From contig NC_088711.1 in assembly GCF_963576615.1 (NCBI RefSeq), positions 17,330,182 through 17,394,181 of the forward strand: a DNA stretch of 64,000 nucleotides. Direction: 5' to 3'. Below the pieces are notes generated by a model. The model was not told the DNA's origin and ran no database searches. It saw only the letters and a program-made list of their open reading frames with translations. The stretch comes from Watersipora subatra. Its lineage: Eukaryota > Bryozoa > Gymnolaemata > Cheilostomatida > Watersiporidae. Both the position numbers and the translations under genes were made by a program. Shown one piece after another: positions 6,101 through 57,736 of the stretch (position 1 is the first letter of the stretch; each line of letters begins with the position of its first letter).

Positions 6101-9100
6101 TTATGAATATCCTCCTGCTAACTAACTACTCTCTACCTCTACTCCAGTAGACTCATATGATGGTCAACTCTCACTAACTACTTCTATCTCTACTCCAGTA
6201 GACTCATATGCTGGTCAACTCTCGCTGGCTACTCTCTATCTATACTCCAGTAGACTCATATGCTGGTCAACTCTCGCTGGCTACTCTCTACCTTTACTCC
6301 AGTAGACTCATATGATGATCAACTCTCACTGATTACTCTCTATCTCTACTCCAGTAGACTCATATGATGGTCAACTCTCACTGATTACTCTCTACCTCTA
6401 CTCCAGTAGACTCATATGATGGTCAACTCTCACTAACTACTTCTACATCTACTCCAGTAGACTCATATGATGGTCAACTCTCACTGACTACTCTCTATCT
6501 CTAATCCAGTAGACTCATATGATGGTCAACCCTCACTGACTACTCTCTACCTCTACTCCAGTAGACTCATATGATGGTTAACTCTCACTGACTACTCTCT
6601 ACCTCTACTCCAGTAAGCTCATATGATGGTCAACTCTCACTAACTACTCTCCACCTCTACTTCAGTAGACTCATATGATGGTCAACTCTCACTAACTACT
6701 CTCTACCTCTACTTCAGTAAACTCATATGATGGTCACCTCTCACTGATTATTTTCTACTTCAGTAGACTCCTTCAGTACTATTCCTGCTATTTGCAATAT
6801 ATTTTTACTTTTTTTCATCCTCTAACTTTTTTTCAACTAACAATGCCGCTTCAGTATTACTTCCATATATGGTGCTGTCAAAAGAAACTTTACAACAGTG
6901 GTTTGTTTAACTTATGCTATATCAGAGTTTCTGACTTGAGTGCAGGTATTGTTTGACACAAACTTGTGATAATGACCTAATCGATTTCCTATTCTGCTAA
7001 CTAACAAGCTTGAAAGAAGTACTATAATGATCTACTGATGTGCTATTGTACAGTGGGAACAAAGATGTGCCAGTCAACAGACTGTCAAGAGGTGGCTATA
7101 CACTCCTGCAAAAGGTGTAAGATACTTCTCTGTGAAAGGTACAGGACTCGCAAGTTTATTCTATATCAGCATATTTTATAGGCGTACAGAATCATCTAGT
7201 GTAGTAGATATGGCTTAATAAATGTTTTTTTGTTTTTGTTATGAAGATTTTATTAAAACGATACAAACTTTTTTATAGAATAATATTTTACTTGACCTAA
7301 CAGAAAAGATATATTCTGATCGGCTAGATTGAGTTAGGGATAACATATATCATTCAATCAGTGAGTTGTATCTCAAATTATCTTTGATGTTTGAGGAAAG
7401 ATAAACAGATTTTACTAGTTTACAAAATGTACAGCCAATAGGCGTTTACATCTATGTACTGACATCTAGGCATTGATGTCTAGGGATTGATGTTTAGGGT
7501 TTGATGTCTAGGGATTGCAGTTTTGCGTTTGTTGAGATAAATGTACATGTATGCTGTAAACGTCAAGCTCTTGGCAGATGTATGGCAACGTCTCTCATTA
7601 TATGAATCTTACACTGGCCAATGTTACATTTTGAGCAGTTCGAATGACTGAAGTTACTTTTCTTATTAAGTTTTGTCAATGTGGATCAATGCGACTAGTT
7701 TGCTTTTTATTACAATAACATGGCATGACTAGTTTTAATGTTTCTATTGGTTCCCACAAATCGGTCTGTTTTATCATGATTACAAACGAAAATTGACTGC
7801 ATTCATTAACAACACTGTTTTACAAATTAAAAAGCGATGTCTTTACTGACACAAAATTGCCCTCTATTGATAAAGATAATCTAGCATGGGCGAGATGACC
7901 AGAGAGCTTCTAGTCTGTTTCAAATGAACAAGTTCTTCTCAGATCCTTTGTGGCACTCACCGACCTAGTGCACGCCAAACAGACGATGTAATGAGGCCGC
8001 ACTTTATAACTTGTTTGTTAGCAAAGTACATCGGCAGTAAAACATACAAAATGCTTTATGTATAGTAATAGAGTATCTACATTTGTATATGTTGCAATTA
8101 GCAATACATAAACCATTTCTGCATTGCAAAATCTGTGTGACATTACTCATGCTACTGCTACTACTAACACTAGTACTGTTGCTACTATTACTAGTACTGT
8201 TACTACTACCACTGCTACTTCTACTACCACTATTACTGCTGCCATTACTACTGCTACTACCACTGCTGCTACTACTACTACCACCACTATTACTACTGCT
8301 ACCCACTACTGCTACTACTACAATTACTACTACACCAGGTGCTCCATTGTACCCTGTCTCAGAGCTCGTAAGGAACACCAGCTAATGAATCTGGCATATT
8401 TGATGCAAGCAGGAGAGAGAGAAATAGATGAATGGATCAAAAAAAAAAAAACTTGCCTCTCTGACCAAAATGCAAAGGTATATCATCAAACTTAGCTCTG
8501 AACTGAAACCTTATCTAGTCATGCAGCAAAATAGTTTGCATGGACTGGAAGAGTCTCACTTGTGGTTTATTGCAACAAAAGACTACTAATTCATTAAAGC
8601 ATTGCTGTATGGGTTCATAAATGGACGAGACGATGGTTTTAAAACTAGTGTGCGCTTGGGTGTTAACCACACTTTTATGTACTTTAACCATATTCCACCA
8701 AAGAAGCCCGATATACTTCAACAAACTTGATTCAAAACTGACTCAACAAGTTATTCTTATTCTTAGTATCAAGTGCCGTCTAATGACTCTACACTGTGAT
8801 CTATTCTGAACAGCGGGCAAATCTGGTGAACAGCATCCGTGAGTCTGGGCAGAAGTTAATAGAGGTTCCTAGTGACCAGATGGATGTCGTATCTAAGGAG
8901 ATGATGAAGACTCTCCGCAAACTCTCATCTGACTTATTCCAGGTTGACATTGCACTGGCCGAGTGGACAACTGCACTCAACTTTGTAGAGTCATTCGTGG
9001 CTGAAATTGAAAAAAGTTTGCTTATCGAAGTTGTAAAACAACTTCACCTTTATGGTAAGGAAAGTATTTAGCTTCAGAACTGCTGCAATTCTAGAATATG

Positions 9101-28631: not shown

Positions 28632-30659
28632 CTACATAGTTGAGCCTATTTGGGGCAGCTTGGTTCTTGTATTTAAGCCCATATCCTCAGCTATCGGTCC
28701 AATCGCTTTTGCTTTAGTGCTGCTTCCTGTCTGCAGCTTGCTTAAAGCTGCTCGAGTAGCAGATGCCTTTTTGGCGGCGAGTTGAGCGCCGTCATCACTG
28801 TGAGGATTTTTTGGCAAACGACGGCGAAGCCAAGCATGGCGTAATGCTTGAGCAGGAGTCATTCGAGATGCTGGATCCCATTCCATGCAGCGCCTCATGA
28901 AGTCAAGAAACAATGGATCATCGCATCCTTTGAGAGCCGTAACTAAATCCTTTGATCCAGGTGAACCCCTCATCTTACCTCTCCGTGATCTTCCGCCTAA
29001 CAAACCAAAGTAAATAGAAAGTGATTGGGCTCGCATCAACAGCAGGCATATGCTAGTGCAAATAAGCTTGTCTATCAATAAGGTGTCAGTTATTTGATTA
29101 AAGTCTATCCTAACAACACAGTTTCGCTAACCACCTGCAGCAAGTTATATCGACTAATCAATCTATTAACTCCAAGCATTCTGAACTATCCAATGCAATG
29201 TCTGATTTGGGCATCACGCATGTACCTCCCGCAATTACATAATGTAAGAGACATTGGATGAATGTCAATTTAGAGACGCCACACATAAACCCATTGCCAC
29301 ACTTCACGCTCTATATCTGACTGAGGAGGTGTGTCATCGTTACAGATGGCTCTGTGACCGCTCACCTTGAAGAATGGTTGATCCATCAGGCATGGTTGAA
29401 ACTGTACAGTATCTTGGATAGCCTTTTGAGCTAACAAAGTTTCTAGCTCTCTTTGATTGGTCTAACAGCTTTTGAGGAGGCATCCCATTGAGCTCTATGA
29501 TGGTGGCGAGCTGATCACCCTCATCCTCTCCGGGATACAACGGATAGCCAGTTAGCAGCTCAGCAAGAATGCAACCAAGGCTCCACATGTCTATAGGCAT
29601 GCCATATTTGGCACCCAAAATCACCTCTGGTGCCCTGTAGAACCTCGACTGGATGTAGGTGTAGATCCGCTGGTGCTCGTAGCAGCTAGAGCCAAAATCT
29701 ATGACCTTGATACCACTGCGGCCTTGCTGCTTGAGCAGTATATTTTCAGGTTTCAAATCGCAGTGAATGATTTTGTTTTTGAACAAGGCATCTAGGCATT
29801 GCAGCATGGAGTGGGCGAACTTACGAACTAGCTGTAAACTGAACCCTTGGAATTTGTTCTTCTTAATCAATTCATACAAATTCATTGATAGCAACTCGAA
29901 TGTTATGCATATGTGATTTCTAAAAGTGAAGTTCTCAAACATATGAATAAGGTTCATTGTGTTGTCACGATCTTGCTTTTTGAGATGTTCTAGTATACGA
30001 ATTTCCTCCTGCGCTTGTCGATGAAAACGTTTTTCATTCCTCACCATTTTGAGCGCAACATGAGCATGAAGCTTGTGATCATACGCTTTGACGACTTGAC
30101 CAAAGCTTCCTTTTCCTATGACTTTTAGCACCTCATATCGGTATGATATGTGGTCATGAGGTGTATGGAGATACGAGCCATTATCATCATCATATCCATT
30201 GTTTTGTGCGCCACCCAACACACCTTGACGCTTTTTTGCATTTTGTCCAACGAAGTATATTTGCGGAAAGTTAAATATCTCGTGATGTTCAAACGAAGAA
30301 AGCTTCTGCATGTACTGCTTCATAGCTGATTCTGGTGACATGGCTGATCTTTTACTGCTGCCACCTCTGATCAAGCCAGCGCTGCCCATTCCAGATTCGA
30401 TCCTGTTCAATGATGTTGCGGACTTGCTTTGAGCAGGTGCTGGTTGAACTGTTGCTATGGTCATGGCGGCGTGTTGAGACTTTTCATCGAATAGTTGTTG
30501 AACTTTAAGCCCTCCTGATGTTGGCTTAGCTAGTGGAGGCAGATGATTGCTGTCCTCCATGTTGTTATTGTGATTGTTCATATTGTATGTCTGTTGGTCT
30601 CCTCCAAGAATTAGCTTACTACCAGGAAATGGTATTTTGACTTTGGAAACGGTTGTCAT
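28632..30659 (-). CDS. DYRK2: dual-specificity tyrosine-regulated kinase 2 (DYRK2)
   Basis: Two coding exons on the minus strand, 30659-29366 and 28996-28632, join in phase 1 (CTTCAAG/gtgagc to gttag/GCGGAAG) and give 552 residues, close to human DYRK2. The protein has a DYRK-homology box (SYRYEVLKV, about 172-180), a glycine loop GKGSFG (182-187), catalytic Lys in ALK (204), HCDLKPEN (299-306), DFG (321-323) and the YTY activation loop (333-335) that class-2 DYRKs autophosphorylate. The conserved tail after the intron ([19 protein letters not shown]) ends the kinase domain. Residues 1-170 match the class-2 layout, and [15 protein letters not shown] is a typical N-terminal block. In other animals DYRK2 phosphorylates Ser/Thr substrates in cell-cycle, proteostasis and Hedgehog/ciliary control. 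A 5' untranslated exon probably ends with the acceptor near 30727. Confidence 0.95.
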
Positions 30660-30727
30660 CGTAGAAAAGGCTGAAGTCTAACTTTTATAGAGCTCAAAAG
30701 TTCTGAGAGCAGATTTGAATACCTGAA

Positions 30728-35673: not shown

Positions 35674-38600
35674 ATGGCACAAACTCATGCAAAGGTGAAA
35701 GTTTCTTCCCGATCTTCGGGCAATGCACGCACCAGCAGTGAATATACAAATGGTCGTCTTCCATTGCCTCCTGTTCAAACCAGCAAAGCAGATCACATTG
35801 CAGAAGGCATGATAGTGAGTTCAATGGCAGTTCCACCTCAAAAAGCTTTTGCAACCTCTGCACGGAGACTTTCTAATGTCAGTGAAAACAAACTGAAATC
35901 AGGGGCATCTCCGGAAACATTGAATGGTAGAACAGCAGACGAGTGGGAACGACTATTGAGGGAGAAAGATAAAGCCATTAAGGACAAAGACCGGGAAATT
36001 CGGGAGAAAAATGCAGCCATGAAAAGTAAAGCACAGGAGATGGCGAAAGCGACTGTAGGTTCATCGATATGTACCATGTGCTTTGGGAATACATTAGGTT
36101 CATCAATATGTACCATGGACCTTGGGAATAGGTTGAATGATAAGTTCCATGTGCCTTGGGAATAGGTTCATTAATATGTACCTTGGGAATAGGTTCATCT
36201 ATCTTTCTTTTTTTGTGACGTCATTTTACCGTTGTCGACCATCTTTATAGACAATTTTATCATTAAAAACACGAAGCCTTAGCAATGAATTTTTGAAAGC
36301 GATGCTTTTGTTTGCAATTTTTTACTATAGTGTCAATACAACACCAAAAAGTACTATTAAATAAAAGAATAACGATTGTTTTCTACAAAGTATGGCGGCT
36401 TTTTCGTAAACGAGCACATGTGCAAATGGCTTGATGACGTAAAAAAAATGATGGATATGTACCTTGTGCCTTGGGAATAGGTTCATCAATATGTACCATG
36501 TACCTTGGGAATAGGTTCAACGATAAGTACCATGTGCCTTGGGAATAGGCTCATCAATATGTACCATGTACCTTGGGAATAGGTTCATCAATATGTACCA
36601 TGTACCTTGGGAATAGGCTCATCAATAAGTACCTTGGGAATAGGTTCATCAATATGTACCTTGGGAATAGGTTCATCAATAAGTACCTTGGGAATAGGTT
36701 CATCAATAAGTACCTTGGGAATAGGTTCATCAATATGTACCTTGGGAATAGGTTCATCTAGACTTGCACCATGTTTCGGTTTAGTCCGGTGGTTGCGGTT
36801 AGTTTCTGTTAAATCCAGCTGAATCTTTTCTGACATCAGACAAAACTGGAAACTCCGGTTAATCGGTGCGAGTTTGAGATGCAACTTTTTGGTATGGTTT
36901 CTGTTTCCATATCATAAAAACTGCGCCTGCGTGCTTGAACCGGATACACAGAATCTTTCATGGAAATTGACACTATTTTCTCTTGTAAGGTTTTTTAATC
37001 TTTGCTTTACATATATGTAGATATCACATCCATTCTCGAAAGCTATTTATATTTCATTACAATAATCTGAAGTTAAGGTTCATGAAATGAGGATGTTCAG
37101 GTGGCCTCGGTGTCAGGTTAACCGTAAGCAATTGTGACATCGTTTGACACCGTGGTGAGTCATCATGTGTGTTGGTTATAAACGGTGTTCGATTGAAGTT
37201 GAGGTCTATAACCGAATTGGCATGGGAGACAAATCGTGCAGGTTTAGGTTCATCTATATGAACCTTGGGAATAGGTTCAACGATATGTACCTTGAGAATA
37301 GGTTCATAAGGAATACCTTTAGGAAGGCATGTTAATTACTGCAAGCTTAACGCTGTATATTCAAGCATACACTACACAATTATCAAACATACCGTACTTT
37401 CATGACTTACAGACTCTTTCTCCATAGCGAGTTCCGTTACCCGACTTTTTAATCTACAAACGTATAGTATGCTTCTTTTGTGCCAACAATTCCTTGTTTT
37501 ATATATTTTAGACGGACATACAAGCTCTTGAGGCTAGAGTTGTTGCTATAGACAAAGAGTGTGCCTCTCTGAAAATAGACATCTCTAAGAGGGAGAAAGA
37601 TGCGCAGCAGCTGCAATCAATTATTGACGCTAAGGTTGGTCGGCCTCTGTTGTGACACTAGATTTGTTTGAAATTTCTGTGTCTCAATGTTTTCTGACAG
37701 TTTTCATTGGTGTTCTACTGTTAAAAAAGGCCTCAAGAGTGTTGCATGCTGGAGCACAAGCCTGCTCTTTTGGACTGGCTGATGAGGGTTAGAAGAAAAT
37801 GTTTTTAAGGTGGCAGGGAAGATTAGAACATAATGCGTTAACAGAAGGTCATGGCCTGCCATCCACCACAGTTATTTATCAACATTGTATTTGCATAAAG
37901 ACTAGTTGAAGTCAGCATTTGTTTAGGTATGATCGGGAAGGATTCAAGCGCTTAGTGTCACAGTAGTAAAATTAGGAGATACAATTCAGGGTTAGTGTCT
38001 TTGTTTCTGCTTGAGCGATTGCCGCCACAATGAGTAAGTACCTAGCCAGTAGATACTGTAATAGTAGCAGTTCATATGTGTGTATGTCATTTTTTTCACT
38101 CAAAAGTTCCTAATAATTCGGAACTTTTTATCAACATTATCAGATTGAACACGTAGTTGCATTTAATAAAGCAGCCAATCGGCAGCAGTATGAGCTACAG
38201 TGAATACTGTATTAGCATCGCTGATAGGGGCAGCAGTTTGCTAGATTTAGATGTTCACTATTGACATAAATGCTCATTCACAAGGATGCCTGTTCTTTAT
38301 CACTGGATCTCTATGGTAACAGCAAACATCCTTTTCAAACATACAACTGGTTATCTGAACTGACAGCAAATAGTGTCACAGCTGCCACTGTTAATCTCCT
38401 AAAGATGGTTCCAAATGAGCAGTTAGGTTAGAGGCATTGTAGAACTGAGGGGCAGTTGAAATGTAGATACGGTTAGTGGAGGTGCATCCGAGAAGCTTTC
38501 AAAGCCCTGAATGGCGAATTGCACTGCGCACACAAAATCTCCTATTACAAATAATATTTATACATTCAGCTCAATTAGATTCTCACAATAGCTAATAGTC

Positions 38601-41600
38601 TCACAAAGCTAAATGGCATGTTTTGTCTTGTTGATAATAGTTACTTAGCCTCTCCTACTGCAGTGCCTTGTATGTTCAATGCGAGAAATGATTTGTTATT
38701 AATGATTTGGCATTGAAAACGCCGAATTAAAATTACTTTTCACCGTTTTTTGAGGATCATGGTATATCGATGTGTTCTTGCTTGGCCTAATTAGTCATGT
38801 TTCATTCTTTCCTTTGATATTCATTCACTTTTTTGCCTGTTTCGTAGCCACTAGTTTACTGATCAGGTCTACTCACTCTGTTTAATCACTCAGTCTACTC
38901 ACTCTGTTCAATCACTCAGTCTACTCACTCTGTTCAATCACTCAGTCTACTCACTCTGTTCAATCACTCAGTCTACCCACTCTGTTTAATCACTCAGTCT
39001 ACTCACTCTGTTCAATCACTCAGTCTACTCACTCTGTTCAATTACTCAGTCTACTTACTCTGTTCAATCACTCAGTCTACTTACTCTGTTCAATCACTCA
39101 GTCTACTCACTCTGTTCAATCACTCAGTCTACTTACTCTGTTTAATCACTCAGTCTACTCACTCTGTTCAATCACTCAGTCTACTCACTCTGTTCAATCA
39201 CTCAGTCTACTTACTATGTTCAATCACTCAGTCTACTTTCTCTGTTCAATCACTCAGTCTACTTACTCTGTTTAATCACTCAGTCTACTCACTCTGTTTA
39301 ATCACTCAGTCTACTCACTCTGTTCAATCACTCAGTCTACTCACTCTGTTCAATCACTCAGTCTACTTACTCTGTTCAATCACTCAGTCTACTTACTCTG
39401 TTCAATCACTCAGTCTACTCACTCTGTTCAATCACTCAGTCTACTCACTCTGTTCAATCACTCAGTCTACTCACTCTGTTCAATCACTCAGTCTACTCAC
39501 TCTGTTCAATCACTCAGTCTACTCACTCTGTTCAATCACTCAGTCTACTTACTCTGTTTAATCACTCAGTCTACTTACTCTGTTCAATCACTCAGTCTAC
39601 TCACTCTGTTCAATCACTCAGTCTACTTACTCTGTTTAATCACTCAGTCTACTCACTCTGTTTAATCACTCAGTCTACTTACTCTGTTTAATCACTCAGT
39701 CTACTTACTCTGTTTAATCACTCAGTCTACTCACTCTGTTTAATCACTCAGTCTACTTACTCTGTTTAATCACTCAGTCTACTTACTCTGTTCAATCACT
39801 CAGTCTACTCACTCTGTTCAATCACTCAGTCTACTTACTCTGTTTAATCACTCAGTCTACTTACTCTGTTCAATCACTCAGTCTACTCACTCTGTTCAAT
39901 CACTCAGTCTACTCACTCTGTTCAATCACTCAGTCTACTTACTCTGTTCAATCACTCAGTCTACTTACTCTGTTTAATCACTCAGTCTACTCACTCTGTT
40001 CAATCACTCAGTCTACTCACTCTGTTTAATCACTCAGTCTACTCACTCTGTTCAATCACTCAGTCTACTCACTCTGTTTAATCACTCAGTCTACTCACTC
40101 TGTTCAATCACTCAGTCTACTCACTCTGTTCAATCACTCAGTCTACTCACTCTGTTCAATCACTCAGTCTACTCACTCTGTTCAATCACTCAGTCTACTC
40201 ACTCTGTTTAATCACTCAGTCTACTCACTCTGTTCAATCACTCAGTCTACTCACTCTGTTCAATCACTCAGTCTACTCACTCTGTTCAATCACTCAGTCT
40301 ACTCACTCTGTTCAATCACTCAGTCTACTTACTCTGTTTAATCACTCAGTCTACTTACTCTGTTCAATCACTCAGTCTACTCACTCTGTTCAATCATTCA
40401 GTCTACTCACTCTGTTCAATCACTCAGTCTACTTACTCTGTTTAATCACTCAGTCTACTTACTCTGTTCAATCACTCAGTCTACTTACTCTGTTCAATCA
40501 CTCAGTCTAATTACTCTGTTAAATTACTCGGTCTACTTATTTACACTGCCCCGACTATTCTCAAAAAGAATTACCATAAGCTACAGTAAAGTCTTGAGCT
40601 GTTTTGCCAAATAATTGTTTGAGTTATTATTATAATTTTGGCCTCCTATCATTTTTGCAACATTGGTTCTACACCGTTGTTTAGCACACTCACGTTGATG
40701 ATGGTCTTATCATTGTTGTTCATGAGATGCTGTATTCATTATTTTAGAAAAATGAAAAAGATTACAAGGCACTTTATGAAGCTGAGGTTGCTGCCCACCA
40801 ACGCACTACAGACCTGCTGACACTAGTCAATGAGAAACTTGATGAGAAAGTGAAACAGCTGTTGGATGCAGAAAAAAGGCATGCCGAGCAGGTGCTAGCT
40901 CTTCAAGCCCAGGTTAGCATTGTCTCTGCGATTAAATGTGGCAGGAATTGTTTGAATTGCTGGATATTCTATAGATCCTACATTTATTTGTTTAACAAAC
41001 TTTCAGCTATGCGCCTATTGCCTAGCATCTATTTGTAAACATTGTGGCCATAGTTTTATTATACATGATGTTTGTTACATACTTTACTAAAAACTTGAGA
41101 GCTTGAACAAAAGGCATATGGGTGTTTCCAACCAGATGGAAGAAAAGATGAAAGTTGCTTTGCAAGAAAAAGATGATCAGATTAAAGAGAAGAATGAGGT
41201 TATTCAAAAAATGAAGAAGCAAATGGCTGAGGCATTTGCTGGCAGCTCAGTGTAAGTAGCAGAAGGTTATGATGGCAGCATCAGCAGCCATTTTCAACTA
41301 GACATCAATACCCAAGTTATGGGCACTTTATTCTGCACTTGTGTAGAACTTTGCATTTTGCTGACAGTCTGCTCTGAGAAACGTAACGTCATATGAAGTT
41401 TTAACCTTTTCGCTTTGCTTTCTATATTACGCAGGGAGAGACAGCAGCAAATTGATGAACTTAGCAAAGAGCTGTCAAAAGTTCAAACGGAATGCGAGAA
41501 TCTGAGAATGAAAATCCGGCAAGGCGGGCACAAGGTACTGATTAGCTTTTAACTAGATAGTCTTACAAATATAATGTATACTTCCTGATGAGTTTATAGT

Positions 41601-44600
41601 CGCTACTGGCTGGACAGTCTAAACATTGGGAACTGCTATGGCTTTTTTCAGTCGCTCTTGCAGCCGTACACAGTGGTCAATCATGGTTTATATTAGTAAC
41701 GTGATATCTGCGGCAAGCTATGCTGCAGCATCCTGTCTCTGCTTTCTCTGTGATCACAACAAAACAGGACTTGAGAATACCTACTGATCAGCTACTCCAG
41801 CAAGTTTCCATGATTGAATTATCATTGTTGATAGCTTTAAGACACCCCAAAAGCATGTGATTTGTTGTTTTTTATATTATATGCTGTTTTAGTCATTTAG
41901 AACGCTTGTCCGACAACAACGGATTGGGGTTTAATTCCCAAAAAGCCACCATTGGTGACAGGGGATAGCGTCTCATCTTAAACCATGACTGTCACGAACA
42001 ACTTTTATCGTACTTACTGGGTAAATCAGACACGCTGATTCCGATTTTGTATTCAAAATAAAGATTAGGCCACTAACCTTCAAAGTCATTTTGGCTTTTT
42101 TAAAGCGTTTCAATATCCGTTTCGAAAACAACACAATCGGCATTACAAACTCCACCCATAAATATGTGACGAAACCTAGCTTTTTCAGGAACGGAAGTTA
42201 GGAACGTTTAGTCCGATTTAGAATAATAGAGATGGGTGTCTTAAAACCCATTATTATCTAAATCCAGCCTGTAAAATAATTTCAGTTTTTTATGAAAGGT
42301 ATATAAACTATTTAAAATTGCTCGTAGCTTGTTACATGACGTTTAAATGGGCTGAACGTCGAGAAAAATTAGCTCAAAAAGCGCGGTTTTATCACAAGCT
42401 AGCGTTGTTATCACGTTTTTTAAAATGCAATGCTAAATAGCTTATCTACCTTTCAGAACAGACTGATACTATTTTTAAGGCTGAATTTAGATATTAATGG
42501 ATGTTAAAACACCCATCTCTATTATTCTAAATCAGTCTAAACATCCCTACGTAACTTCTGCTCCTAAAAAGCTAGGTTACGTCACGTATTTATGGGCGGA
42601 GCTTGTTATGGCGATCGTGTTGTTTTCGAGACCGATATTAAAACGCTGTAAAAAAGCCTTCATTACTCTGAAAGTTAGTGGACTAATCTTTATTTTGAGT
42701 ACAAAATCAGAATCAGCGTGTTTGATTTACCTAGTAAATACGATAAAATTTGTTCGTGACAGTTATGGTTTAAATTTCTCTTTGCAACTGGGTCTTCAGC
42801 ATTCATGTCTTTCAGTTGTCAAGGCTTTTTTGCAACTAGACTCAAACATGTCCAGTCAAGACCACAGAGCCATTGTTTGTGTAACAATACTCTTAAAAAC
42901 ACGTAAAACCTCTGCTTCAATAAGCTAAGCAGACAGCACACTCTATCTTCATTGCTCTGTAAATTACTTCTTTATAATTTATCAGAGATCCTCTAATGCC
43001 ATCCAAGCTTTTAGCCTATGCATAGTTGGAATGGAAAAGCAACGTAGCAGTTTTTTAACTCATGATGTACCAAAAGAATCACTTTTTATACCCAAATTGA
43101 TATTTTGGAGTTCTTGTCAACATGTAGGCCTACATTCATGTCATCACATAGCATCAATATCATGTATGTGCGAGATTACTATAATCTAAACATAAGTCTT
43201 CACAGGGACAGTCTCTACCATCACATAGCATCAATATCATGTATGTGTGAGATTACTATAATCTAAACATGAATCTTCACAGGGACAGTCTCTACCATCA
43301 CATAGCATCAATATCATGTATGTGTGAGATTACTATAATCTGAACATAAATCTTCACAGGGACAGTCTCTACCATCACATAGCATCAATATCATATATGT
43401 GTGGGATTACTATAATCTAAACATAAATCTTCACAGGGACAGTCTCTACCATCACATAGCATCAATATCATGTATGTGTGAGATTACTATAATCTGAACA
43501 TAAATCTTCACAGGGACAGTCTCTACCATCACATAGCATCAATATCATATATGTGTGGGATTACTATAATCTAAACATGAATCTTCACAGGGACAGTCTC
43601 TACCATCACTTAGCATTAATATCATGTATGTGTGAGATTACTATAATCTGAACATAAATCTTCACAGGGACAGTCTCTACCATCACATAGCATCAATATC
43701 ATGTATGTGTGAGATTACTATAATCTGAACATAAATCTTCACAGGGACAGTCTCTACCATCACATAGCATCAATATCATATATGTGTGGGATTACTATAA
43801 TCTAAACATGAATCTTCACAGGGACAGTCTCTACCATCACATAGCATCAATATCATGTATGTGTGAGATTACTATAATCTGAACATAAATCTTCACGGGG
43901 ACAGTCTCTACCATCACATAGCATCAATATCATATATGTGTGGGATTACTATAATCTAAACATAAATCTTCACAGGGACAGTCTCTTCCATCACATAACA
44001 TCAATATCATGTATGTGTGAGATTACTATAATCTAAACATAAATCTTCACAGGGGCCGTCTCTACCATCACATAGCATCAATATCATGTATGTGTGAGAT
44101 TACTATAATCTGAACATAAATCTTCACAGGGACAGTCTCTACCATCACATAGCATCAATATCATGTATGTGTGAGATTACTATAATCTAAACATGAATCT
44201 TCACAGGGACAGTCTCTACCATCACATAGCATCAATATCATGTATGTGTGAGATTACTATAATCTGAACATAAATCTTCACAGGGACAGTCTCTACCATC
44301 ACATAGCATCAATATCATGTATGTGTGAGATTACTATAATCTAAACATAAATCTTCACAGGGACAGTCTCTACCATCACATAGCATCAATATCATGTATG
44401 TGTGAGATTACTATAATCTAAACATAAATCTTCACAGGGACAGTCTCTACCATCACATAGCATCAATATCATGTATGTGTGAGATTACTATAATCTAAAC
44501 ATGAATCTTCACAGGGACAGTCTCTACCATCACATAGCATCAATATCATGTATGTGTGAGATTACTATAATCTAAACATAAATCTTCACAGGGACAGTCT

Positions 44601-45254
44601 CTACCATCACATAGCATCAATATCATGTATGTGTGAGATTACTATAATCTAAACATAAATCTTCACAGGGACAGTCTCTACCATCACATAGCATCAATAT
44701 CATGTATGTGTGAGATTACTATAATCTGAACATAAATCTTCACAGGGACAGTCTCTACCATCACATAGCATCAATATCATGTATGTGTGAGATTACTATA
44801 ATCTAAACATAAATCTTCACAGGGACAGTCTCTACCATCACATAGCATCAATATCATGTATGTGTGAGATTACTATAATCTAAACATGAATCTTCACAGG
44901 GACAGTCTCTACCATCACATAGCATCAATATCATGTATGTGTGAGATTACTATAATCTAAACATGAATCTTCACAGGGACAGTCTCTACCATCACATAGC
45001 ATCAATATCATGTATGTGCGAGATTACTATAATCTAAACATGAATCTTCACAGGGACAGTCTCTACCATGTGAAAACTGTAAAAACTTGAAGGCTCATCT
45101 TGAGAAGAAGGAGCAGACAATCAAGGAGAGAAATAGAACCGTTGATGAGCTAACACTCATATGTGATCGTTATGAGGTGCAGCTAAAACAACAGGAGGAG
45201 CTCCTAAAGCAGTGGCAGGATGCCAAAGGTCGAATGTTAATATTTGACAAATAA
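35674..45254 (+). CDS. coiled-coil protein of unknown family, six exons
   Basis: Exons 35674-36054, 37512-37634, 40748-40912, 41100-41251, 41435-41534 and 45054-45254 join in frame to give 373 residues. The N-terminal 85 residues are Ser/Thr-rich and probably disordered. From about residue 90 to the end the protein is a nearly continuous charged coiled coil (REKDKAIKDKDREIREKNAA; EEKMKVALQEKDDQIKEKNE). The last exon has a CENC motif and ends in a QQEELLKQWQDAKG helix. No catalytic or membrane motif is seen. It lies directly upstream of the ciliary gene CFAP210 on the same strand, and such proteins are often cytoskeletal or centrosomal; that role is inference. Introns 1, 2 and 5 are dominated by minisatellites. 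The exon 4 acceptor (aacttgag/AGC) is weak and is the least certain junction. Confidence 0.8.
36055..36770. repeat. 27-bp minisatellite starting at the exon 1 donor; fragment resumes at 37230-37310
   Basis: The unit is TAGGTTCATCAATATGTACC followed by TTGGGAA (27 bp), with a 34-bp form that doubles ATGTACC. The first unit begins inside the splice donor of exon 1 of the coiled-coil gene (ACT/GTAGGTTCATCG). The array is split by insertions at about 36200-36462 and 36758-37240, after which repeat units resume. Confidence 0.9.
36198..36462. mobile_element. small MITE-like insertion in the 27-bp array
   Basis: About 265 bp of unique sequence interrupts the array. Its ends are roughly inverted (CTTTTTTTGTGACGTCAT at the left; ATGATGACGTAAAAAAAATG at the right). 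There is no coding capacity. The boundaries are approximate because the flanking repeats obscure a target duplication. Confidence 0.5.
36758..37240. mobile_element. second insertion in the 27-bp array, unclassified
   Basis: About 480 bp of non-repeat sequence lies between two copies of AGGTTCATCTA. The ends show weak inverted similarity (ACTTGCACCATGTTTC at the left; the reverse complement of the right end contains ACCTGCACGATTTGTC). It could be a degraded DNA transposon or original intron sequence bracketed by repeats. Confidence 0.35.
38865..40545. repeat. 26-bp minisatellite, about 64 copies, coiled-coil gene intron 2
   Basis: The unit is CACTCAGTCTACTCACTCTG followed by TTCAAT (26 bp). 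The CTCTG at 38876 and that at 40514 are exactly 63 periods apart, so net length change across 1.6 kb is zero. Variation is almost entirely two C/T sites (CTCACT or CTTACT; TTCAAT or TTTAAT). Confidence 0.95.
41978..42773. mobile_element. TTAA-flanked palindromic element, 796 bp, coiled-coil gene intron 5
   Basis: The left end TTAAACCATGACTGTCACGA is matched inverted at the right (TTAAACCATAACTGTCACGA as reverse complement). The arms remain similar for about 270 bases each side, then enclose a centre of about 250 bases. TTAA at both ends fits piggyBac or Kolobok-type insertion. No transposase is visible; the long open frames in the arms are repeat artefacts. Confidence 0.78.
43140..45069. repeat. 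77-bp minisatellite that includes the 3' splice site of the last exon
   Basis: About 24 tandem copies of a 77-bp unit run up to and over the acceptor of exon 6 of the coiled-coil gene. Each unit contains ATCTTCACAGGGACAGTCTC then TACCAT, which is the branch/acceptor region plus the first 16 bases of exon 6. CACAGGG occurs at 43201, 43278, 43355, 44048 and finally 45049; the first and last are exactly 24 periods apart. Variation is limited to a few sites (CTAAACATG/CTGAACATA, TGTGAG/TGTGGG/TGCGAG). Confidence 0.96.
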
Positions 45255-45540
45255 TTTAAATTTTTAGAATTAGTTTTTAATAGAGATTCTTTTTTAATGT
45301 TTGTATCATGGTACATGCACCTAATTTGTTGCTCATTGCTATAGAAACAATTTGATTTGTACATAATATTTATTGTTAGCGTGACATTGCTCATTGTCTG
45401 TTCATTGCAGCAGTTAGACTAGGTGTTTTTTTATACAATTATTATTATATTTAAAACGCTCAATTACATTGCGGTTTGGTTTATCGCCTTTAGGCTGAGC
45501 CACCGGTTTTTATTTTAAAATATTTGTATGTTTGCCTTGT

Positions 45541-46123: not shown

Positions 46124-49100
46124 ATGGCGCTTGCATCGAGAAAGGTTGAACATGGAAGAAGAAAAGGGGTTACTAAGCGTATGTTAAATTGTTAAAAGTT
46201 TTAATATAAAACAGCAGTGACCTACAACATGCAATGTATTGTGTTCAGCGAGTTTACATTTCCTTCATAAATACGAGCTACGACGGTGTCGTTATATGTA
46301 AGACTGTCCTAAAATAGTGTGCAACCGAGGTGAAATGCATGAAGTAATAAAAATAACGTTATCTTTTGTATAGCTGTTAGTGCACCCACATTAAACCTTC
46401 AAATGCCGGATGAAACCTCTCTCAAAGACATGATTGTTCTAAGCGGCAAGGAGTGGGACAGAATCAATCAGCAGTTATACAGAAGGGAGCTACAACAAGA
46501 AAAATTAAAAAACATGAGAGAAGAAAAAGACAGTAGGAAAGCTCTCTCAAAAGATATGGTGAAAGACTGGCCAAACACGTTAGAGGTAGGTGCTAGCACT
46601 AACAGTTTGATTATTTCGTGTGCTTACTTAAAAATACTAGGAAAACATTTAATGAACATTAGTAGCTTCTTTACCAAAATAATTTGCAGGGTAATCGGCG
46701 TCGAAAATTAGAAGCAAGAGCCATCCGGGAGGCAAAAAAGGAGGAAGAGCGGAGGCAATTAGATTTGGAGGAAGCAAAATTTCAGGCTCAAAAGCGAAAG
46801 GAGGCCATAGAAAAGGCTAAGACTCAACAGTATTATCAAACTGATCGAGTCAAGAACTTCCATGTAAGTACTATTATATGTCATACATTGCAATAATTGT
46901 TTTGTAACTCATGCATTTACTAGCAATTCTAACAAAAATTATTTCTGTGCAGAGCGCCCTTCGGTTGACTGAAGTGTTGAAAGAGAGAGATGCCCAAGTA
47001 GAATTCAGCCATCTGAAAAAAGCAGCCAATCAGGGAATGGATAGAGCATATTTAGAACGTGAGCAAAGGGATCTTGAAGAAGCAATTGCTAAAGATCAGA
47101 TGGAAGCTCAAAAGCGAATCTTATCAGCAAAGAAGAATAGAGACTTTATCAAAGCTCAGTGAGTTTTTCAATGTAGAGTTTATGACGTTCAACCATACTT
47201 ATATAAAACAATGTTGTACTAATAATATGATGACAGAGTTTAACGCATACGAAGTATTGTCAGCTTAAACTCTAAACACGGGACTGTAAACTTTGTCACA
47301 TTCCTGGCACAACTGGAATAGCTTATCAGACATAAACAACAAAACATATCAGTTCTGTTTGTTCCTTGTTAGGTTTTTAAATGACTATGATTAAAATTTG
47401 ATTGACACATAAAAATGAAGCAGTTTTTTTATTGATGAAAACCCATGGAAAAAGTCCAAATTCAATAAGCAAATGTCCCCTAGTTATTTGAGGGTACCAA
47501 ACTTGTTGACTTTGTATAGCATTCACCTATTTCTACATTACGCCAATCCAAACGTTGGTAAACTTGTTACTTGAAAATGGCCAAAAAGGGAAATCCTACA
47601 AAAAATTTTTCATTTGGAATGGCTTTCTTGTTTCTACTTTACATTATAAAATAGTTATGAATTTTTTGCGTAATAATTAATAAAATTATGCAGGGTTTCT
47701 ATTTGCCAACAGCATAATTTCTCACCCAAAAACTTGTAGAGACTACTTTTCAAAACCATTTTTTATAGAGTGATGGACCATCTGAAAGGCAAAGTCAAAG
47801 AACATGAACTTGACAAGCAGGAAGGAGATGAGCTCAAAAAACTCGCCATACAGTATGAGATCGAGAAGAAAAAACTTGATCAAATAAGAATGGAAGAGAA
47901 GCTACAACTAGGTGAAAAAACTTGAGCCATTACATTCACACGTTCCGGCATGTTGAACATCAGGGTGTTTTAGACATAGGAATATATCATCACCATCATA
48001 TATCTAGATAGATATATACATAGATAAATCTACTCACTATCTTGCAGGTTTGGATAACAAAAAGCAAATTGCTGACAGAGAAAAGTTACTAGAAATTGAA
48101 AGACAACAGGAAGAAGAAGAAAATGAAGAATGTAGAATTTTCGCAGCTGCGAAGAGAAAAATGGCCAAATTAAGAATGGAGAAAGAAAGGCAGCTCCATA
48201 AGTATGTTTTTATCAACTTATTGTTGCAATGGTTTACTGAGTGGAGGCTTGGCGGCATATCACTGTGTATACATTATTTCAGTGACAAACAAACCACGCT
48301 AGAGAAAATCCGAGAGAAACTAGCAGCCCAAATGAAGACAAGAGTGGATGATGAGGATGACAGGATACGAAGGGCTGTGGAGGAGGCAGAAGAGAAGCAG
48401 GCCAAGGATGATGCTGAGCGGGAGAGAAAGGCGAGGGCAATGATAAGGGAAGCTGAAACGCACAGACTAGCCATGGTAAGACAAATTCAGAAAAATTATT
48501 AATACTAAATTTGCTAAATTTTATACATTAGCATGCTATTAATTTATGACTATCTATTTATGTTAATAGTATTACTGGTAGTAAATATGATAGTAGTAAA
48601 TTATTAATTTACCATTTCTGTGATCGGTGAAATAGGCCTACTAATATTCTGCTGCATTTATAAAATGATTATAAAGCATGATTTTGTATCTTATAAAATC
48701 TGTAGTGGCCATAATTGTATGCGGTTATTAGATGAAGGATGCAGAGAAAAAGGCAGCTGAAGAGCGGCTGGCTGAGCTGGAAAGAATTGCGATAGCAAGA
48801 GAAGCTGATGAAATATTTAAGAAGAATGAAGTGGAGAAGGCTAGTCGACGAAAGCAGGAAGCTGTAAATGTAGCAGGGTTCCGCATCACTCAAGCCGTAA
48901 GTCATTTAATGGCAAGAAAAATACTTTGAATGTAAAGGATATGCAGGAACATTAAGTGGTAAATTTCAAATCCCATTTTCTGTCATTTGCGAGTGTCAAG
49001 TTAAAATGAATGTAGTGAAAAATATACATTGGCAACATTGCAGGAAGAGAGACTAACAAAGGAGCAGGCTGCCAGGCAAAAGGCCCTGGCACAAGATGCT

Positions 49101-49553
49101 AAAAATGTGGAGCTACTGGCACTGGAAGAACAGCAGTTCCAGGAATATGCCACTAAGGTTATAGATCACTGTGAGAAAGGAGGTAGAAATACATTCCCCC
49201 TGAGAAAGGCAGCTCAAATCGGAATAGGAGGTGGACAGGGACCGGTGTATGACGGTGGGTGTGACTATGTAAAAGCTATTTTTGAGACAATTTTTATCAA
49301 ATTAAAGGGTTCCTTATTTTAGAAACAAAGTTTCTCAATGATATACCTGAATGACAGTTAACCCATCATAACTTAGTTACCACGTTCCGATATTTCATCT
49401 TATCTAGGCAAAGGAGGTATCCGCCCAAGCTACATGGCCAAGGATGTAGGAGGAACACAGCTACCGACATGGAAAAATGGGCAAACAGAGCAAACAAAAG
49501 TGGACATATATGGAGAAGTACCGACAAACAAGAGACTTGGATTTATTTGGTGA
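46124..49553 (+). CDS. CFAP210: cilia- and flagella-associated protein 210 (CCDC173)
   Basis: Ten exons (46124-46178, 46374-46585, 46690-46863, 46953-47158, 47769-47911, 48048-48201, 48283-48475, 48732-48896, 49044-49254, 49408-49553) join in frame to give 552 residues, the length I recall for human CFAP210. Diagnostic blocks are VLSGKEWDRI, AKFQAQKRKEAIEKAKTQQY, YQTDRVKNFHSALRLTEVLK and the C-terminal RPSYMAKDVGG and TNKRLGFIW. The protein is almost all charged helix with the trichohyalin/plectin-homology character of this family. Family knowledge: CFAP210 is a microtubule inner protein inside the B-tubule of axonemal doublets, stabilising motile cilia and flagella. A candidate X-box lies just upstream. 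The gene converges on SUPT4H1. An acceptor-like cttgcag just before the ATG hints at a non-coding upstream exon. Confidence 0.95.
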
Positions 49554-54030: not shown

Positions 54031-55651
54031 CTGACCAAACCTATCTTCCCATTTGGTAGTAATCGTATTTCGCTGGCAAACAGGTATTGCGTTGAGATCT
54101 GCGATCTGAATTGTTGGCTTTGTCAGCTACAGGTGTGGTTGCTTTGGTTGATGGGATGTTGCTGTGATGGGAGGCACTTGATGTTGCAGCTTCTTTTGCT
54201 GTTTCAGGAACTACTACTGGAACTAAGATTTTGTGCATTCCGCCTGGGGAATTCATATCATGTTGTTCAATGTTCAGAGGCTCATCGACTTGTATGGGGG
54301 CTTCTCTGAGGTCTACTTGTTTGCGTCGGAAATTGTTGCCACTGTCCTCGTTAAGCACTGCATATGATCTGTCAAACATGGCTTCCAACACCTTCCCTTT
54401 AGTCCACTTAGCTTTAATACTCTCCAAACTCTGTATCCGTACAGGCGACTCGATCTTCAATCGAAGTAGGTCAGTTGCCGTTTTGTCATTGTGTCACTAA
54501 CTTTTTGTGTGCTTTTTCTTGGAGTACCATCTCTTTGTTCTGGCTGTGCGTCGAGGCGCTGGTAGGAAGTGTTGATCTGGTGGATCTCCCATCATTTTTT
54601 GGATAGATGTGGACATTCCAGCGGTGGGTGTGTTCTTGTATTCAAGTATTGCCAGAAATGGGTCTTCTGCTCGTCTCAAAAACCTTTTGAATATTTTTAC
54701 TGCAGGTCTACTTTCCTGTTTGATTGGGCACTTCCTAGAGAGCTCGTTGTACAATTAAATTTCTAGCTGTTGCTGAAGTTAGCAAGTTTCAAGGCTGTGA
54801 ACTAAGGTCCGTTATTTGATTATATAATCAAGTGAATACCGTAACCGGCAAATATTTATTACTGTTTTTGTCTTGGTATCTTCGAGGGAATCATACTCGA
54901 AAAATCACTCAAGTAATCGACCACTATGATGTAGTCTTTCCCTTATTGAATGAGCAGGTCCATGCCTACTTCGACCCATGGAGCTGCCGGTATGTCATGG
55001 TTTTGCAAGGTTTCCTTGCCCTAAGCTGAAGCATCCATTGCACAATGTACAAAATAATGTACCTGCGACCTGATGTTTATTGCCATATTTGGTCAGTATC
55101 GCATGACCTGGCTCTCCTTAGAGTTGCAGCTGTACCTTGATGGCTAGCGTGCAGCTTCTGTAAAATCTTTAGCCTGTATGATTTTGGAATAACTAATTGG
55201 GGCGCTTTGTAGATTATCCCACCCGAGACCGCTAACTGGTTCCTGAGATGGAAGTATTGTTTAACGGCTGTAGAAATTTGATCTTGCTTGTGCCATCCAC
55301 CAATTATTGGTTCCGTGAGTTCCTTGAGCTCAGCATTTGTTTGTGTTGCTTATAAGTCTCTATGCCGACTGGTATAGCCTGTTGAAACTTAGTTGTATTT
55401 AGATCAGAGAGGAGAGTTTATATTTGACAGATCTGTTTGACTGACGCATTGTTAGCCGTCAGGATGTCTGTGGGACATCTGGAGAGCATATCAGCAGTGA
55501 TTTGCTGGCTAACGCGGCAGAATATCAACTTTGCAGAGTATCTTTGAATTGCTAATAACATGGATTGTAATCTCTTGGGAGCTTCGAGCAGAGATTTGTT
55601 TCAGATAGGTATAAGCGGTTTATGATCAGTATGTATGTGAACATTTGGGTT

Positions 55652-57736
55652 TGTTTGTTTGTTTTATTTCACATTAAATCATGACGTAATAAGATTATAG
55701 AAAGATTAAGGTGCAATGTGGGCCCATATGCGCAGTAGCATGGCTATTCAAGGCGCAGAGCCGAGTTAACAGATGAGATTGTCAATGAAAAAAACAAGGT
55801 TGTGTAAGCAATAGAAATCGGCACAAATCTATTCCAGAGAGTTCAGCAAGTACTGCTTTGAAGCAGCTCTAAAACCATCATGACTGCCAATTTTTCATAG
55901 CCAAATTGGCAAGGAATTCCATGCTGATGACACACGATAGGCAACCCGTCTATGGCCACCAGTAGAGGAGGAGGGTGGAAAAGATAATGAAAATAAGAAA
56001 TGACAAGTGTTATAATGTGTTGACAAGTTGGTTTGAGATTTAAATTGTGAGAAGGCTGAAATACATTTTCTTAGTTGGTATAGTTGCTGTATAGGCAAAA
56101 CACGAGATCTTTTAAACAAAGGAGCTGACGGAAAATAGGTGTTTTTATGATATATTATTTTAAGCAATTGCTTCTGGATGACTAAAATACTGTTCAAGCA
56201 GCTCATTGAAGCGTTACGCCATGCTTCCAAGCAATAAACTTTTACTGTTAATTAGAGTATTACATAAAAGCAAAAGAGGCATTTCTGATAAGATCAACGA
56301 GGCTTGGTAAAAATGTCCCAAGCTTTGTTGCAGTTGTTTTCTCAGTAGTTCTATGTGTCTTGACCAGTTTAGTGTACTATCTATTGTAACGCCTAAAAAT
56401 TTTATGCTATCCGTCATTAGTATGTTTTGTCCTTTCATGGAAATGTTTTCTGTTAATTGAAATTTATTTTGTGGATTTTGAATAACTATGAAATTAGTCT
56501 TGTCAACATTCAATGTTACTTTGTTTTTGTCACACCAATTTTTTATCGCATCTAATTCTTTGCTAATTATAGTTGTCTTTATTCAAGTTTTAGCAGTATA
56601 AAATAAGTTAGTATCATCAGCGAACAAAATCGTTTTAAATTTGACAGTACTCTTTACAAGATCATTTATATATAACAAAAATAGTGTTGGTCTAAGGATC
56701 CTTGGGGTACTCCACATTTAATTACTAGAGGTTGGGATATTTTCTGAGATATTATAACACTTTGAAGATGATTTGATAGATCATTTTGAATTAATTTTAA
56801 ACTCGAGTGAGAAAAATTTATTTGCTTAAAGGTTGACTTGCAACAAAATTCACATTACAGTTATTTGGTATCAAAAGATTCACCATGTCTTACTCTCTTG
56901 TGTTGTAGGTGCCAAATACGTGGAAATGTGATTACAAGCTCTTGAAAGCTCAAAAACGAAACGCCGCCGTAGATTAGAATCTTTATTTCTCTGACGTAGT
57001 CATTACAGTTTGGTTATCGTTTTGTCACGCGATGTTCTCACGTGAATTAAAAGGCCAATAAAAAGCTAAATGTAAAACTTATCGTAGCACTAGTTTATGA
57101 CAAACACTTCGGGTTTTACCGAAGACCCCGTATAAATATAGATGCTCGCTACTTTACAGTTTTGTTTCGGCATTATTCAATCGTCAAGTCGTAATCTGAT
57201 CACGTGACCCAATACTTCGCAAATAATTTTTGCAGCACTTTTCGATTATCACAGGTGACCAACAGGTTCGTCATGATTATCAGACAATGATATGTACTCT
57301 TTCGAGCTAAGGTTAAAAAGTTTAACGATTTTTTGCGGTAAGTTATAAGATATCACTGCTAAAAGTGACAGCATTGCAATGACAATAAAACAGACGCGTA
57401 AGAACAATAGACATGGTTTTATTGAATGCATGAGGTATATTTGTGAAAATATTTCGACGAATGAGGTTGCATGAAAATGTAAACAGAAACCATCCTGTAC
57501 CAACTACGTCCCATTTGAGCCGTTTTGGAAAGCGAATCAAAGTACCTGCGATTTTCTGTTCGTTTTTTAGCTTTTAAGAGCTTGTAATCACATTCTCGCA
57601 TATTTTGCACCTACAACACAACAGAGTAAGACATGGTGAATCTTATGATACCAAATCACCGTAATGTGAATTTTGTTGCAAGTCAACCTTTAAGCTTATT
57701 TATCAAAATAGAGTGATCTATTGTATCAAAAGCATA
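55652..57736 (-). mobile_element. 5'-truncated non-LTR retrotransposon (LINE, Jockey/CR1-like) inserted in the LTR element
   Basis: On the minus strand the RT blocks AFDTIDHSIL (near 57700-57736), GVPQG and LFLLYINDL (about 56650-56720), FADDTNLF (about 56605-56630) and FLGVTIDSTLNWSRHIE (about 56345-56400) identify the palm and downstream parts of a non-LTR reverse transcriptase. The element begins inside the RT domain and ends in a short CAAA-type tail (TTTATTTTGTTTGTTTGTTT region near 55652-55670 on the plus strand). TGGGTT at 55646-55651 and 57737-57742 looks like the target duplication. A stop interrupts the frame between FADD and the next block, so the copy is dead. It is split by the TTAA element at 56826-57693. 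Confidence 0.82.
56826..57693. mobile_element. TTAA-flanked inverted-repeat element (copy 2), inside the LINE
   Basis: An 868-bp relative of the element at 50221. The ends TTAAAGGTTGACTTGCAACA are inverted copies of each other. Internal blocks (CACATTACAGTTATTTGGTA, GTTGTAGGTGCCAAATACG, AGCTCTTGAAAGCTC) are shared with copy 1. It interrupts the LINE reading frame shortly after the AFDTIDHSIL block, so it inserted after the LINE. No transposase is seen. Confidence 0.85.

Follow-up and report, generated by a model that had tools for sequence, protein, structure and literature searches.

Mirage minisatellites, as described in amphioxus, are tandem repeats that run across an intron/exon boundary and carry splice signals in many of their units. 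The original description, from amphioxus Adh, is reportedly that of Canestro in 2002, and to our knowledge all mirage cases described come from cephalochordate hosts; should the host of the array reported here belong outside the lancelets, the range of mirages would widen past this group. Two papers place them in Adh3, in the globins BflGb6 and BflGb9, in PGBD5 and in TnC, and state that Adh3 data and globin RT-PCR suggest that regular splicing is undisturbed by them (PMC3087553, PMC3902484). Arrays of this type have also been proposed as a source of new introns.

We describe here what appears, from its sequence, to be a long example of this known but rare structure. Like BflGb6, in which the repeated segment joins the last part of an intron to the first part of exon 2 (PMC3087553), it duplicates an acceptor with the beginning of the following exon. 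It has 25 units, against 6 and 3 in two BflGb6 haplotypes (same source), and its unit of 77 bp compares with 150-160 bp reported in BflGb6, 157 in BflGb9, 10-72 in Adh3, and 60 and 108 in PGBD5 (PMC3087553, PMC3902484). Length polymorphism or somatic instability and undisturbed splicing would also be expected of a mirage; the present array is read from one DNA sequence.

Splice signals in tandem repeats are known from other systems as well. Turri et al. in 1995 reportedly found a minisatellite with multiple splice donors in an interferon-induced transcript; that array has a short unit and multiplies donors, in contrast to the acceptors multiplied here. Introns can also be gained when exon/intron sequence is duplicated in tandem, the extra splice signals serving as raw material, as they might here; the array shows no new intron. 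The VNTR in intron 18 of human ABCA7 is, like the present array, an intronic tandem repeat with one splice site per unit that adjoins an exon boundary; it differs in its 25-bp unit, which begins with a splice donor rather than containing an acceptor, and in having measured splicing effects, namely retention of one unit at about 2%, irrespective of length, and skipping of exon 19 that rises with length (PMC5954066). ABCA7 shows that length effects on splicing exist, but by another route, exon skipping; the closest precedents, the mirages, speak against a copy-number function, and this more distant one leaves room for it. Variable tandem repeats can, moreover, activate cryptic splice sites (PMC2812944). 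Among the matches listed in the open-licence literature, which mostly excludes subscription papers, there was no acceptor array as long as this one, and the available parts of PMC2206037, PMC4039745, PMC12783039, PMC2812944 and PMC12480690 hold no closer case.

Anatomy of the array and of its host gene

In the window, by which we mean the whole stretch of 64,000 nucleotides analyzed, positions 43142-45066 of the plus strand are occupied by exactly 25 full units arranged head to tail and in register, with no indels. TRF delimits the array at 43142-45069 (period 77, 25.0 copies, 96% matches, 0% indels, score 3618), the last three nucleotides (CAT, 45067-45069) being common to the unit start and to the sequence after the array. 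A sequence-only reading had placed a minisatellite at 43140-45069; its existence is borne out, while the in-register units move its start to 43142 and its last three nucleotides are the shared CAT. That reading did not place the array in the mirage class. Every unit differs from the consensus at 0-3 positions, mean pairwise identity is 97.1%, and 13 of the 77 columns are variable. With few variants among units, the core reads ACTATAATCT(A/G)AACAT(A/G)A(A/G)TCTTCACAG/GGACAGTCTCTAC, the slash marking the splice position, and unit 25 continues as CATGTGAAAACTG, the coding sequence of exon 6.

The array spans the boundary between the last intron and the last coding exon, reaching 13-16 nt into exon 6, of which the first 13 bases lie inside unit 25 and the next three are the CAT shared with the unit start. 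The units repeat the acceptor together with the opening 16 nt of exon 6, as the same reading had proposed in speaking of an amplified acceptor and exon start. It had further expected the same acceptor sequence in each of about 24 units. We find CTTCACAG/GG with its AG intact in 24 of the 25, the real acceptor included, which leaves 23 usable upstream copies; the expectation fails for unit 10, whose acceptor reads CACGG (GG at the AG position, 43897-43898). Among the 28 annotated exon/intron boundaries, only the exon 6 acceptor has spanning copies of at least 80% (24 copies), and the best ungapped match to the unit elsewhere in the window, on both strands, is only 40 of 77 bases.

We read the host gene as six exons in one frame coding for a coiled-coil-like protein of 373 residues (Table 1). 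Exon 6 opens GGA CAG TCT in phase with exon 5, and the array fills the last 1.9 kb of the 3519 bp of intron 5. The codon score is highest in the true frame for all six exons (27.7 for exon 6, against -34.2 and -21.2 in its other frames), and in all 82 non-coding windows the best frame scores -25 or less; this score was trained on CFAP210, which is rich in lysine and glutamate, and the control windows overlap its non-coding training set. Against Pfam, the protein gave nine families at E up to 1, all under their own cut-offs (lowest E for Filament, 16.8 bits versus a cut-off of 40). Against PDB, it gave eight weak matches, none with E better than 0.02; five of these carry the name of sc-apCC3 variants, which we take from the name to be designed coiled coils. 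Pattern searches of genome_contigs and viral_contigs, which do not include animal genomes, confirmed no relatives.

Table 1. Coordinates of the host gene, acceptor positions and downstream neighbour in the window
Feature	Position	Strand	Basis
Exon 1, from ATG	35674-36054	+	reading frame, codon score
Exon 2	37512-37634	+	reading frame, codon score
Exon 3	40748-40912	+	reading frame, codon score
Exon 4, acceptor weak, start least certain	41100-41251	+	reading frame, acceptor and codon scores
Exon 5, AAG end in phase 0, then GTACTG	41435-41534	+	reading frame
Unit 10 exon-start position, acceptor without AG	43899	+	unit alignment
Real acceptor CTTCACAG in unit 25	45046-45053	+	alignment, reading frame, acceptor score
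Exon 6, last coding exon, GQSLPCENC...MLIFDK stop	45054-45254	+	reading frame, codon score
Purine-rich stretch in exon 6, possible splicing enhancer	45100-45137	+	purine-hexamer matches
Likely poly(A) signal, AATAAA	45541-45546	+	sequence motif
CFAP210 orthologue, ten exons	46124-49553

Variation among the units and origin of the array

A 77-bp segment across the intron 5/exon 6 boundary would have duplicated in tandem, perhaps by slippage or by microhomology-mediated repair at CAT, and the array would then have grown to 25 copies as a minisatellite of the mirage kind. CAT is in fact present at both breakpoints. A C at unit position 30 is found in units 1 and 25 only, a pattern noticed after the fact, with a chance of 1 in 300 if two carriers were randomly placed. 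This suggests that the first unit had C and that the T form spread inside, and it is what would be expected where array edges escape homogenisation, as the edge units of BflGb6 are reported to do (PMC3087553). Units next to each other are no more similar than a random arrangement would make them (P 0.83 at lag 1, about 0.05 at lag 2), so that homogenisation of the interior is only partly visible, and the same values give a weak signal for higher-order dimers.

We count eleven distinct unit types, several of them common to distant units. Simple stutter would not give these together with the edge-specific variant, which bears on the reading that the array is an assembly artefact and the true locus holds a single copy or a few. 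Assembling arrays of this sort is difficult, and the BflGb6 mirage was misassembled in the amphioxus draft (PMC3087553); given the diversity of the units, we regard an artefact as extremely unlikely, although the exact copy number may be off.

Variable columns are not depleted at the splice signals: of the 13, two fall in the acceptor core (2.0 expected) and four between the branch region and the AG (3.7 expected). Their placement thus shows no constraint on splice signals among units, nor does the variation among the 25 units show selection on the copies. This fits a drifting minisatellite, and the array is probably close to neutral.

Strength of the acceptor copies and choice among them

Over 56 bases around the site, the upstream units differ from unit 25 at 1-4 positions, and none is identical to it. 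We scored each copy with a matrix built from 13 other acceptors of the host gene and CFAP210, a weak instrument given its small size and the score of -12.7 that it assigns to one real acceptor (exB8). On this matrix the real acceptor (45054) scores 8.23; of the 23 upstream AG copies, 15 score higher (up to 9.25), seven have the same score and unit 1 scores 6.3. Outside the array, 41 of 3631 plus-strand AGs score at least as high as the last copy. The row of about 25 near-identical 3' splice sites that had been read from the letters is therefore there, as 24 AG sites. On this measure local strength gives the last copy no advantage, and its main difference from the others lies beyond position +16.

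These scores also bear on whether the gene model is wrong at its 3' end, with exon 6 not joined to exon 5 or with another acceptor in use. The end of the protein has no confirming named homologue, and the exon 5 donor, GTACTG, is weak (score -1.8); but the phases of exons 5 and 6 match, exon 6 scores as coding only in the matching frame, and of the 108 AGs that intron 5 and exon 6 contain outside the array, the best has 7.69, short of 8.23. We hold an error of this kind to be very unlikely.

Splicing to an upstream copy would truncate the protein, as had been suggested: from all 24 upstream positions, unit 10 included, foreign residues are followed by a stop, and the exon 6 frame is never reached, because 77 is not divisible by 3 and the units contain stops. 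The tail has 14 residues at 19 positions, in agreement with the short tail foreseen for most units (16 are identical to the peptide then given, three have one change), 45 at four, one of which is unit 10 without its AG, and 37 at one (unit 24). Nonsense-mediated decay may spare mRNAs whose stop lies in the last exon; as the stops of upstream-spliced mRNAs lie there, these might escape decay.

We infer that the spliceosome most likely uses the last copy, since amphioxus mirages are reported not to disturb splicing, and because no other copy is followed by a real exon, with its purine-rich sequence and a poly(A) signal. Every upstream copy is followed by 16 nt of exon and then by intron-like sequence, and the exon context behind the last copy would steer the spliceosome to 45054. 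Exon 6 holds ten overlapping purine-hexamer matches, eight of them at 45102-45125, and the 1912 nt of array upstream of it hold none; such matches are present in 13 of 16 exons and absent from 13 of 14 introns (intron 2 has four), with a hexamer list picked after exon 6 had been inspected. That exons 1-3 of the host gene are without matches counts against the exon-context reading. In published work, beta-globin acceptors duplicated in vitro were spliced exclusively, though very inefficiently, at the distal copy, whether 14, 55 or 205 nt of exon stood behind the upstream one, which supports distal use rather than exon context specifically. The 15 upstream copies that outscore the real acceptor are a point against use of the last copy. 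On balance, we consider it likely that the array is a near-neutral mirage of which the last acceptor copy is used.

The same upstream copies, 23 usable sites with similar or higher matrix scores, are what would make leaky or regulated use conceivable, in which some transcripts join an upstream copy, yielding a truncated protein with a short foreign tail, in a share that may vary with copy number. The authors of the amphioxus globin study name repeated AG/GT signals as possible cryptic sites (PMC3087553), and the donor-bearing ABCA7 VNTR goes with one-unit retention and with exon skipping that increases with length, although retention itself does not respond to length (PMC5954066). Amphioxus mirages are reported without aberrant mRNAs (PMC3087553, PMC3902484), and the copies here show no constraint on their splice signals; we therefore find leaky use unlikely. 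Neither a mixture of C-termini nor tuning of splicing by copy number, both raised in the sequence-only reading, finds support in the present results.

A related proposal, that the array is a copy-number-dependent switch of the C-terminus, is in our opinion highly improbable. In it, two dozen near-equal acceptors would compete with the last one, and base pairing between adjacent copies, made possible by the near self-complementarity of AGGGACAGUCUCU, would hide them; array length and pairing would then govern the use of exon 6. The acceptor motif AGGGACAGTCTCT does come close to self-complementarity, and when the interval 43000-45300 is folded with a maximum pairing distance of 200 nt, adjacent acceptors pair, but the last acceptor is hidden to the same extent as those inside the array. 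We considered RNA structure as the selector and rejected it: only unit 1 has a freer AG, all the others (units 2-25) having it mostly paired, so structure does not pick out the last copy. Compared with shuffles, no excess folding was seen for a single unit (the identical units 2 and 24; z -0.26, 72 of 200 as good), for unit 4 (z -0.61) or for the last unit plus exon (z -0.39), while a stretch of five units gave a modest excess (z -1.96, 3 of 100).

The units could also be regarded as possible exons of 35 nt, each bounded by an acceptor and by a GTATGT donor, that might be recruited as micro-exons or mark an intron in formation. CAT/GTATGT occurs in 21 of 25 units, 35 nt downstream of the previous unit's acceptor; the unit donor scores 6.73, where the 14 real donors range from -1.8 to 9.0, GTATGT is also the sequence of two real CFAP210 donors, and an intron-gain model has been proposed for the amphioxus globin (PMC3087553). 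But only 42 nt separate this donor from the next acceptor, half of the 81 nt of the shortest of 14 annotated introns, so that at least one unit would need to be skipped, and one, two or three such exons each hit a stop (frames worked by hand), which makes recruitment most improbable.

The array represents a long natural test of 3' splice-site choice, in which 23 near-identical upstream acceptors differ from the real one mainly beyond +16. If the last copy is always used, this would be in vivo evidence for exon context or position as the decider.

Other repeats and neighbouring genes

Further repeats are present in the introns of the host gene. A minisatellite, TAGGTTCATC...TTGGGAA, begins right at the exon 1 donor, from the second base of intron 1 onward (36056-36200), and recurs at 36455-36758 and 37245-37306. 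It resembles the PGBD5 repeats that adjoin a 5' splice site (PMC3902484) and stays outside the exon, the 40 nt spanning the donor having no copy at 80% and the first 30 intron bases having five. Intron 2 contains a 26-bp minisatellite of about 64 copies with a 13-bp half period (38867-40537), and intron 5 a nested inverted repeat (41978-42773), whose arms measure 208 nt (88%) and 123 nt (84%) and which may be a MITE-like or fold-back element.

Elsewhere in the window, a 52-bp minisatellite at 6121-6758 carries a pyrimidine-rich CAG in most units and apparently lies in an intron of another gene. Eleven pattern-matched CAG sites in and just after this array (6.1-6.8 kb) score -6.0 to 6.2, below the 77-bp copies. 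Our impression is that the surrounding gene is TRIM-like, an identity that a Pfam search did not confirm.

The CFAP210 orthologue starts about 0.9 kb downstream of the stop of the array gene, and its reading matches PDB chain 8snb_3N best (449 bits); six other sequences score 71-232 bits, and other CFAP210 chains at most 232. The genes of the window contain introns, and this neighbour points to an animal. Searches for tRNAs and Rfam families across the window gave no matches. On the minus strand, a protein kinase gene, which we presume to be DYRK-like, lies at 28632-30677 (Pkinase in Pfam, 173 bits), and in the interval 55077-56582 an integrase zinc-binding domain and a reverse transcriptase are matched weakly, below threshold, which probably marks decayed retroelements.
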